Assembly: GCA_037893245.1 (NCBI GenBank)
Contig: JBAIAA010000074.1
Coordinates: forward strand, 1,488,001 to 1,552,000
Source of the DNA: Crossaster papposus
Lineage: Eukaryota > Echinodermata > Asteroidea > Velatida > Solasteridae
Length of the DNA: 64,000 nt
Direction: 5' to 3'
The notes beneath the pieces are model-generated. The model was not told where the DNA came from. It worked only from the letters and a program-made list of their open reading frames with translations, and made no database searches. The translations under genes and the position numbers were made by a program. Of this stretch, positions 18,901 through 62,893 are shown one piece after another (within the stretch, counting starts at the first letter, position 1; each line of letters starts with the position of its first letter).

Positions 18901-21900
18901 TGTGCAAGATTAAGAGTGATGGCTCCTATGTCTGCATGTGTTTGGGAAGCTGGACTGGGGAAAACTGTGAACTTGGTAAGTTGTGGCGTAAAATTGTTTA
19001 CTTATTTATTTATTCTCAGTGCGAGCTAGACTGGGCCAAATTTCATGAAGCTCCTAAGCACATTAAATATTTACTTAGCAGATGTATTTGTTAAGCATGA
19101 ATGAGCTGGGAACCAGTCGCAAGTCATACATATTATATAGGATTATGGTTGGTAACCGGTAGCCATTGACAAAATGCTATTCTCGAACCGAGGCTTACTT
19201 TGAGATTTACTGCAAACAAGTAACAATGTCAGGCTGGAATTACGGCTTCTAAAGTCACAATGAGCTCAATAAATAATAATGTTTAGACCTTCAATACAGT
19301 TAATTTCTTGGCACGCTTGAACATATCCTTTGCCCAAATGCCATACATGTATTCAATTTATTTGTTTGAGAACTATCTCTGGTATTTTATTTGACGCAGT
19401 AATCACATAATCTTTTTAAAATAATTAATAATTTTGTTTATGTAATTCTTACCCTTCCCCCGCCTAGTTTCACCTCCCCCACCAATTCCCAACCCACTTC
19501 CACCACTTATCCCTTACACCCACCCACCATCATCTACATATACCCTACCCGATCTACTTCCTACCCCACCCTCCCTCAACCTTCCCAACCAATTCCCCAC
19601 CCCTACCATTTTCCCTATCTTACCTTACCCATCTAATTCATTTGTATATTTGTTTTTTTCCTTTTTAAGTGTTTTTTAAGTGGTTGATGACTTAATTTTT
19701 TGTTTTTTAAATTTGTATGATTAATATTAGTTTTTATTTCTGCTTTCTTAAAGTGTTTTTGTACATGCATTGTGAAAATATACTAATTTGTAAATGTTCT
19801 TGACGATTCCACTGTTGGCGGCGAAAAAGACATGAAATTAACAAATCTATATAAACCACAGAGCTATATTAAATTACTAGAGCGCTGGCTCGATGTACAA
19901 AGTGATGCGAGCTGGGCGCATCCATGTTTGTGCACAAGCCTATGGAAACCTCAACATTTTGTACGGCTTTTGTACGGCTATTTGCATTTGTATTCTATAC
20001 AGTGCGTTACCAAAGCCGATACACCCAAAACCAAAACGCATGATCAGCAAATAAGCGCAAACATCGCAAATGCGCGTGCGTATCCACGCGCTGCAGTATT
20101 TTGCCGTGACTTTTTTTTAAAATGACATGACGCGCGTGAAGTTGTTTGCGTCTGTTCTAGAGTTTTAGAGTACACTTTCAAAATTGAATCCATCTATTTT
20201 TATTATGTTCTACAACACGCACATGAATTCAAAATGTCTGCGCGCAGAATGAAAAGTTAGCGCTCTAGTAATTTATTATAGCTCTGTGATACAAACCAAT
20301 CTATACATGGCACTTCAAATCACTCTAAGGAATGTGATTGAAAACCGCAGGTGAACTGGGTCATGCTGAATCCACTGTGTGTATCACACTGATAAGCAAA
20401 GCCACATGCCCATTCACCAACCACAGAAGTGCCATTAATTGTACATACAAAGAATCGTTCAACGAACTGTAGCTGGAGTGATTTGGCATGTACCCCTGAC
20501 TTGCTGTAAAGAACTCTCATAGAGGAAATTGTCATATGTTTTAGGCCGTGCACATTGCGGTGCTTGGGGAGATCCCCACTATACAACCTTCGACGAGCGT
20601 AAGTTCGACTTCCAAGGCGCATGCAGATACTACCTGTTGAAGTACTGCGGGGATAACGACGCGCAATATTTTGACATCGTCCAACAGAACCGCAAAGTCT
20701 CCACTAACTCCAAGGCTGCCTTCACCAAGGATTTGTTGATAAATATCTTTGGTCGTGTAAGTGATTCCCTCATCTTGTTAAAGTGGGTTTTCACTATGCG
20801 CACGCATTTTGTTCTGCATAAAATTTAATTGAGGAGTGACGTCGCAGGTCAGATTGCCTTTGAATTACGTGACCTTCGAGGTCAATTCTTAATCAGATTT
20901 ATGCAAAACACGATGTGTGCACATATGTGACCCGCTCTGCAAAAATGAGTCTGATGTCGGAAAATACATTTTTATGTAAAGGGCTGATTATTGTCTCGGA
21001 GGTGATTTTTTTTTCAACAAATAATATTTTTGTTTTAAGGCATTTTGGTTTCTTCGATACCTATATTTTCAGATCTGATCGATTGAAAAGATTGTTTTGA
21101 TTCCTAAATTAAATTTAATACAGGTTATGTCATTCTCTTACCATTGCATCTGATGCAGCACTACAATTGTAAATCTTCATTTCTTTTCAAAGACATTTTG
21201 AATACATGTATAACTAAACAAAAGCAAATTTCCTAAAATTGTAAAAGACCAATGCATTACACTACAGAGTTGTGCCATATATCAAATGAAAGCTTATTTC
21301 CTGCTTTTTCGGACCAACTGTAAAATTGAAAAAACATTTGTATCACATCAGACTCATTTTTGCAGAGTGGGTCACATATCGTCGGGAACATTTAAATATA
21401 TGTAAAGAGGGGGTACATCATCGTCTATTTTGCAGCTATCCAAAAAACAACCAACCCAAATACTTTTAAATACTTATTTATGTTTGGCGTACGTTTCTGC
21501 AGAAAATCGGTCTGCTTCAGAAGAAAAAGCTGAGCATTGACGGCATCCTTCGCACCCCGCCCTATAATTCAAACGGGATCTCCATCACACGCAGTGGCAA
21601 TAAACTGGTAAGTTGTACCCACACTCCGCCCGACAACAAGAGTGCCAACATGTCGCTCAGAACTGACTGGCACATTGCGTATCGACAGGTTGAAATATTC
21701 TCTTACAAGTTGTGTTGGCTCAAATGTAGAAATGAAATTTATATGTTTCACATTCTGGTTTGTTTTTTTACTGGATTTTGGAAGTAAAAATAAGGCTGTG
21801 TTTGAAACGGGCTTCCAGAGCTACGGCTACGACTATTGTCAGCATTTTCCAGGTAGTTGTAATAGGCGAACAACTAGACAATAGCCACAGACAAGAGATT

Positions 21901-62893: not shown

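Follow-up and report, generated by a model that had tools for sequence, protein, structure and literature searches.

The window analysed here, a stretch of 64,000 nucleotides from a contig of Crossaster papposus (JBAIAA010000074.1), contains a portion of a single animal gene, of the FCGBP/zonadhesin type, that encodes a large mosaic protein, probably an extracellular one. Thirty-seven exons were re-derived from the sequence. They consist of 29 exons belonging to four cassettes and of eight upstream exons, namely five EGF exons, an orphan TIL-hybrid pair (TIL0 and hyb0) that stands without VWD or C8, and a CUB domain encoded by a single exon. Their positions in the window, phases and lengths are as follows.

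785..907, forward strand: EGFa, 1-1, 123 nt; Pfam EGF 34.4 bits (cut-off 21.5), the top EGF stretch in the window
2303..2422, forward strand: EGFb, 1-1, 120 nt; six-Cys EGF pattern
3699..3812, forward strand: EGFc, 1-1, 114 nt; six-Cys EGF pattern
8229..8345, forward strand: EGFd, 1-1, 117 nt; six-Cys EGF pattern; weak donor (-0.6 bits)
9756..9881, forward strand: EGFe, 1-1, 126 nt; six-Cys EGF pattern
13116..13321, forward strand: TIL0, orphan TIL, 1-0, 206 nt; 40/44/31% identity to TIL1-3
14852..15038, forward strand: hyb0, orphan hybrid, 0-1, 187 nt; 26-29% identity to hyb1-3; Pfam EGF_3 34.8 bits
16661..17044, forward strand: CUB, 1-1, 384 nt; Pfam CUB 34.7 bits (cut-off 21.4)
18862..18975, forward strand: cassette 1 EGF (EGF1), 1-1, 114 nt; tblastn matches to other EGF exons
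20545..20756, forward strand: cassette 1 VWD a, 1-0, 212 nt; GDPH
21503..21607, forward strand: cassette 1 VWD b, 0-0, 105 nt
22696..22851, forward strand: cassette 1 VWD c, 0-0, 156 nt; weak acceptor (0.4 bits)
23841..24003, forward strand: cassette 1 VWD d, 0-1, 163 nt; one Cys lost
25646..25825, forward strand: cassette 1 C8, 1-1, 180 nt; one Cys lost
26423..26628, forward strand: cassette 1 TIL, 1-0, 206 nt; acceptor 1.9 bits
28240..28420, forward strand: cassette 1 hybrid (TILa, then EGF-like end), 0-1, 181 nt
29797..29913, forward strand: cassette 2 EGF (EGF2), 1-1, 117 nt; Pfam EGF 21.0 (cut-off 21.5)
32409..32623, forward strand: cassette 2 VWD a, 1-0, 215 nt; GDPH
33718..33822, forward strand: cassette 2 VWD b, 0-0, 105 nt
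37063..37203, forward strand: cassette 2 VWD c, 0-0, 141 nt
38952..39096, forward strand: cassette 2 VWD d, 0-1, 145 nt
39674..39853, forward strand: cassette 2 C8, 1-1, 180 nt
41420..41613, forward strand: cassette 2 TIL, 1-0, 194 nt
42803..42980, forward strand: cassette 2 hybrid, 0-1, 178 nt; TILa 23.6 bits (cut-off 27)
43935..44054, forward strand: cassette 3 EGF (EGF3), 1-1, 120 nt; Pfam EGF 21.1 (cut-off 21.5)
44668..44876, forward strand: cassette 3 VWD a, 1-0, 209 nt; GDPH; one Cys lost
45640..45744, forward strand: cassette 3 VWD b, 0-0, 105 nt
47122..47277, forward strand: cassette 3 VWD c, 0-0, 156 nt; one Cys lost
50552..50702, forward strand: cassette 3 VWD d, 0-1, 151 nt
53096..53275, forward strand: cassette 3 C8, 1-1, 180 nt; Pfam C8 79.6 bits
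53679..53890, forward strand: cassette 3 TIL, 1-0, 212 nt
54170..54350, forward strand: cassette 3 hybrid, 0-1, 181 nt
55997..56110, forward strand: cassette 4 EGF (EGF4), 1-1, 114 nt; Pfam EGF 21.9 (cut-off 21.5)
57268..57473, forward strand: cassette 4 VWD a, 1-0, 206 nt; GSLQ replaces GDPH; donor 3.7 bits
58917..59021, forward strand: cassette 4 VWD b, 0-0, 105 nt
60734..60874, forward strand: cassette 4 VWD c, 0-0, 141 nt
62743..62893, forward strand: cassette 4 VWD d, 0-1, 151 nt

All 37 exons have GT donors and AG acceptors. When joined, they comprise 6,000 bases and 1,999 codons with zero stops, and the phase is continuous across all 36 introns. The number of 37 exons given in an earlier sequence-only reading was recovered in this way; the start of the region, placed there at 20545, has to be moved upstream, as cassette 1 opens with an EGF exon at 18862. 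No C8 or later exon of cassette 4 was found in the window after VWD d. With leave-one-out weight matrices, the chosen donor was the best site in its own reading frame for 31 of the 37 exons and the chosen acceptor for 28, and both scored top in all four VWD b exons. These matrices were built from the same 37 exons, so that the scoring is a check of consistency and not an independent one. The nine acceptors and six donors that are not best in frame, together with the fact that splice sites were picked by eye with homology in view, would fit a gene model that is partly wrong, with missed or mis-joined exons, or a decaying pseudogene, the uniform phases then reflecting a choice of sites made to fit. 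Such an explanation is very improbable in view of the 1,999 stop-free codons in unbroken phase, the Pfam VWD scores of 109-121 bits in all four cassettes, and the loss of cysteines in pairs on separate exons described below.

Pfam matches above cut-off were obtained for VWD in all four cassettes and for C8 and TIL in the three cassettes that include them, in the order VWD-C8-TIL, which is that of a D assembly. TILa lies above cut-off in cassettes 1 and 3 and below it in cassette 2 (23.6 of 27). Among the cassette EGFs only EGF4 passes the Pfam EGF cut-off of 21.5 (21.9), EGF2 and EGF3 are just under it, and EGF1 has no Pfam EGF match at E 0.01. At the same E value, TIL0 has no Pfam TIL match and hyb0 no TILa match; both are named from their identity to the cassette copies (31-44% and 26-29%, respectively). 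Zonadhesin is characterised by MAM domains, mucin repeats and a transmembrane end around its VWD domains, and the group of gel-forming mucins and VWF by a PTS-rich mucin domain, VWC and a cystine knot. No MAM, VWC or cystine-knot family was found at E 0.01 among the 37 exons, which represent part of the gene, its start not among them. Viral contigs contained no relatives of the cassette 2 VWD, and the window has no Rfam family at gathering score and no tRNA.

The phases of the cassette exons had been claimed to be invariant, and all 29 were recovered with the phases proposed for their type: EGF 1-1, VWD a 1-0, b 0-0, c 0-0, d 0-1, C8 1-1, TIL 1-0 and hybrid 0-1. In the exon table, phases are equal to those of cassette 1 in 21 of 21 comparable introns. 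Every D assembly has one and the same set of seven exons, with introns at shared positions and in shared phases. An alignment of the four window assemblies that also included two assemblies each of FCGBP and VWF placed the a/b, b/c and C8/TIL introns in identical columns in all copies having them, and the remaining introns showed small shifts in gapped stretches: five columns for c/d in assembly 4, two for d/C8 in assembly 2, and one for TIL/hybrid in assembly 3. The introns of different cassettes are taken as homologous on the basis of this alignment. Independent gain of introns at the same places in every assembly, instead of inheritance through duplication, would require an extreme coincidence of 21 equal phases and matching columns; no point supporting it was found, and its probability is negligible.

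Exon lengths had been described as frozen, which holds for VWD b (105 bases in four of four cassettes) and C8 (180 bases in three of three). The other six of the eight exon types vary, with 114-120 bases for EGF, 206-215 for a, 141 or 156 for c, 145-163 for d, 194-212 for TIL and 178-181 for the hybrid. Protein identity between copies is low, as had been stated, at 17-40% for b and 32-41% for C8. Ungapped alignments were obtained between the cassette 3 C8 and each of the six human FCGBP C8 copies shown, which belong to one solved chain, and also with D1 and D2 of MUC2, two of three; D3 aligns with gaps. From the ungapped alignments, 60 residues is the usual length of this C8 type; the gaps in MUC2 D3 indicate that C8 length is not fixed across all D assemblies. 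Constant C8 length was rejected as a mark of duplication on the grounds of these six FCGBP and two MUC2 copies, and appears to reflect a constraint on the domain, imposed by the C8 fold and not by the way in which the copies arose. The b segment comprises 35 residues in the window, 38-39 in five human FCGBP copies and 30-38 in seven mucin/VWF copies. Its constant length in the window is real, with four copies and one of eight exon types as its basis. As a mark of duplication it is weak (35 codons in four of four against 30-39 in 12 human segments), and this length is probably held by the VWD sheet and not by the mode of duplication.

Cysteines were followed in 14 VWD and C8 columns that recur in three or more of the four aligned human assemblies (two FCGBP, two VWF). 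Only four of these 14 columns show a loss in assemblies 1-3, two in assembly 1 and two in assembly 3. Missing from assembly 3 are the third exon a cysteine and the one that opens the CGLC motif of exon c; missing from assembly 1 are the final exon d cysteine and the second C8 cysteine. The total number of cysteines in assemblies 1-3 is even (32, 34 and 32). Assembly 4, which is cut by the window end, keeps the eight VWD columns and has an extra cysteine in exon c, giving an odd count of nine. The lost residues correspond to what we take to be the VWF disulfide partners 898-993 and 1060-1084, a third VWF pair presumably being 889-1031. If this VWF pairing holds, whole disulfides have been lost, the halves of which lie on exons one or two introns apart, and such paired losses across exons argue for joint translation of these exons and for assemblies that fold. 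They also provide a transcript-free check on gene models of this kind that makes no use of splice sites. FCGBP has a disulfide C4097-C4255, according to the available part of PMC10880436. C4097 is located 17 residues past the GDPH Asp, matching the alignment, and the span of 158 residues, compared with 154-155 in the two FCGBP assemblies aligned, is consistent with the assumed third pair. The disulfide partners of the two lost pairs were not found in the available parts of PMC11933400, PMC10082768 and PMC10880436.

Assemblies 1-3 possess a GDPH motif and a Gln 14 residues past its Asp, and assembly 4 has GSLQ instead. For assembly D10 of FCGBP, the accessible text of PMC10880436 reports that changing the Asp or the His blocked or inhibited Asp-Pro cleavage, that changing this Gln had a partial effect on cleavage, and that the cut strand can stay disulfide-tied. 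Because motif and Gln are present in assemblies 1-3 and match the requirements of FCGBP D10, these three assemblies should self-cleave between Asp and Pro and stay disulfide-tied, and assembly 4 should not. We infer that the encoded protein would be a secreted, cross-linked matrix, mucus or adhesive protein, similar to FCGBP, zonadhesin or the adhesive proteins of marine animals.

The closest solved relative of cassette 3 is human FCGBP (PDB 8rde and others), with 160-208 bits for each of six assemblies. A VWD tree of 16 rows, comprising the window copies, FCGBP assemblies 1-5, MUC5AC 1-3, MUC5B 1 and VWF 1-3 and leaving out FCGBP 6, MUC5B 2-3 and MUC2, separated the window copies and FCGBP from the mucins and VWF with a support of 89/95 at a fork that is not starred. 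The five FCGBP rows form a group of their own (89/88) without the window copies. The gene is of the FCGBP/zonadhesin type. The window VWD copies were recovered as a clade of their own in 7% of bootstraps, a grouping not rejected by the AU test (p 0.19). As they form no such clade in the tree, some copies could predate the expansion of the gene itself.

The whole cassette was proposed to be bounded by phase 1 on both sides and thus able to duplicate in frame. The phases are as proposed, and they do not identify the unit, as phase-1 bounds are also found on each of EGF, VWD a-d, C8, TIL plus hybrid, and CUB. With every sub-block being 1-1, any block or run of blocks is movable in frame, so that phase cannot define what was duplicated. 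That sub-blocks can stand apart is shown by the upstream TIL0-hyb0 pair, which lacks VWD and C8 and adjoins the 1-1 CUB exon. Shared intron positions and phases lend good support to growth of the gene through in-frame copying of phase-1-bounded blocks; the eight-exon unit by which the gene was said to have grown is not singled out.

The inclusion of an EGF in the duplicated unit is supported by order, since one EGF precedes each of the four VWDs. EGF sequence, with 38 columns, neither supports nor rejects it. Outside cysteines, the cassette EGFs have an identity of 0.226 among themselves and of 0.221 to the five upstream EGFs. Among all 126 sets of four, the four cassette EGFs rank 52nd by identity and 21st by BLOSUM, a weak comparison over these 38 columns. 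The EGF tree, equally weak, has no starred fork; the cassette EGFs come out together in 8% of its bootstraps, a grouping compatible with the AU test (p 0.63). By BLOSUM, EGF1 and EGF2 match the upstream EGFa best, and EGF3 and EGF4 match EGF1 best. EGF and VWD identities are weakly correlated (r 0.35, a value reached by four of 24 permutations). Judged by order alone, the EGF most likely travelled with the assembly that follows it.

That a single fixed unit of eight exons, from EGF to hybrid with the EGF included, was tandemly duplicated several times is possible but doubtful. It would account for the order EGF-a-b-c-d-C8-TIL-hybrid, complete in three cassettes and present as EGF-a-b-c-d in the fourth, for the single EGF before each VWD, and for the weak EGF-VWD correlation. 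It is opposed by the 1-1 phases of all sub-blocks, with which any rotation or smaller block would also keep the frame, by cassette EGFs that are not distinct from the upstream ones, by closest pairs that differ from block to block (see below), and by the orphan TIL-hybrid pair. A duplication of seven-exon D assemblies between which EGFs were inserted separately, as independent 1-1 modules, is unlikely: five further 1-1 EGF exons are present upstream in the window and EGFa is the best match of EGF1 and EGF2, but a single EGF would have had to enter the same gap on four occasions, which is less parsimonious than an EGF within the unit, and EGF3 and EGF4 match EGF1 best.

EGFe falls with EGF1, EGF3 and EGF4 at 52/80 in the EGF tree, a placement too weak to lean on, yet one that would fit a fifth cassette that lost VWD and C8. 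The gene would then have grown from an EGF-led D-assembly cassette, and EGFe-TIL0-hyb0 would be a fifth cassette minus five VWD and C8 exons, lost in frame. We consider this speculative and somewhat improbable. No convincing match to VWD or C8 exons was found between EGFe and TIL0 when the 37 exon proteins were searched with tblastn against the window with exons masked; the best E value was 0.039 anywhere and 0.09 in this gap. If a fifth cassette did exist, TIL plus hybrid would form a module of two exons that can move on its own, as is the case in rodent zonadhesin, and whole disulfides would be lost from assemblies by partnered steps that span exons.

Four-fold degenerate sites are identical at 77 of 251 positions over nine copy pairs (0.307, with 0.257 expected by chance), and this proximity to chance indicates that the duplication is old. 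Within cassettes 1-3, copies 1 and 3 are closest in VWD and C8, 1 and 2 in TIL plus hybrid, and 2 and 3 in EGF. With the closest pair differing by block, the copies do not yield one consistent history of duplication. Homology between cassettes is not clearly supported by intron DNA, with matches in five of 39 homologous intron pairs and in 30 of 367 others; many of the matches belong to dispersed repeats. The introns between EGF and VWD in cassettes 2 and 3 share a collinear match, with 62 nt at 79% and 179 nt at 72% identity (31407-31464 and 32084-32259 against 44169-44441); it has no other match under E 0.05 in the window, and its cassette 2 side is interrupted by an inverted-repeat element. 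This match could be a relic of a joint duplication of EGF and VWD. As the four-fold sites are near chance, neutral intron sequence this old would not be expected to align, and the likelier origin is a repeat present twice in the window.

The introns contain several repeats. The inverted-repeat element (31496-32084) lies in the EGF2-VWD a2 intron and has arms of 206 bases that are 90% complementary and also match part of the c4-d4 intron. A dispersed repeat of about 250 bases occurs in both orientations in eight introns, at 75-89% identity to the copy at 1663 (1663-1916, 8847-9101, 24148-24420, 36707-36950, 39425-39532, 39903-40165, 49654-49877 and 60017-60261). Copies of a second dispersed repeat are located at 7133-7500, 28624-28950, 41021-41359 and 54376-54681. 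Its first 51-54 bases match the unit of a 54-base tandem array with about 10 copies at 58267-58822, which may be a satellite that arose from one end of a mobile element. At 42991-43653, an 18-base unit is repeated about 37 times; this array starts about 10 bases past the cassette 2 hybrid donor and has several open frames. Finally, a 19-base array of about 34 copies with a 97% match (3847-4499) in an EGF-EGF intron is in line with recent amplification.

Taken as a whole, the best explanation, to which we assign a probability of about 0.75, is that this is a mosaic gene of the FCGBP/zonadhesin kind in which an ancestral D assembly would already have had these introns before it was copied, and in which the copies would have arisen long ago through in-frame duplication of phase-1-bounded blocks. 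The locus thereby provides an exon-level example of growth of a D-assembly protein by such blocks, and a case showing that phase symmetry by itself cannot define a duplicated unit. An EGF-led D-assembly cassette with exon phases was not found in the available parts of the open-licence literature, which is not proof of its absence.

Repeated blocks cut by introns at the same places are of a known kind, as this pattern has already been described for fish zonadhesin. In zebrafish zan, the VWD region has grown by tandem duplication of phase-1-bounded blocks of 17 exons, and the fish blocks, which contain two VWD domains and a fragment of a third, are 85-87% identical in DNA (available text of PMC1325057) and hence recent. 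The fish gene thus resembles the window gene in having a VWD region built from tandemly duplicated exon blocks. It differs in that its blocks are recent and no EGF is named in them in the accessible text, whereas in the window the duplications are old and an EGF precedes each assembly. In mouse zonadhesin, 20 partial VWD domains (D3p) are each encoded by a two-exon cassette, according to the available parts of PMC1325057 and PMC9275260. These two-exon cassettes resemble the TIL0-hyb0 pair, of which the window has one compared with 20 D3p cassettes in the mouse; we infer that D3p corresponds to TIL plus TILa.

The adhesive proteins Sfp1 of a sea star, Mlig-ap1 of a flatworm and P-vulgata_1-4 of a limpet combine VWD with some of C8, TIL and EGF, and Sfp1 is cut autocatalytically into four subunits, as far as the available descriptions extend. 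By these descriptions, they share the mix of VWD, C8, TIL and EGF with the window gene; unlike in these marine proteins, no discoidin, galactose-binding or C-type lectin family was found at E 0.01 among the window exons. FCGBP consists of tandem VWD-C8-TIL-E assemblies, with GDPH in 11 of 13 and a set of three assemblies present three times, according to the available part of PMC10880436. The b segments measured in five of its human copies are longer than those in the window (38-39 versus 35 residues), and its solved human chain leaves no space for an EGF between consecutive matches, whereas the window gene has an EGF for each assembly.
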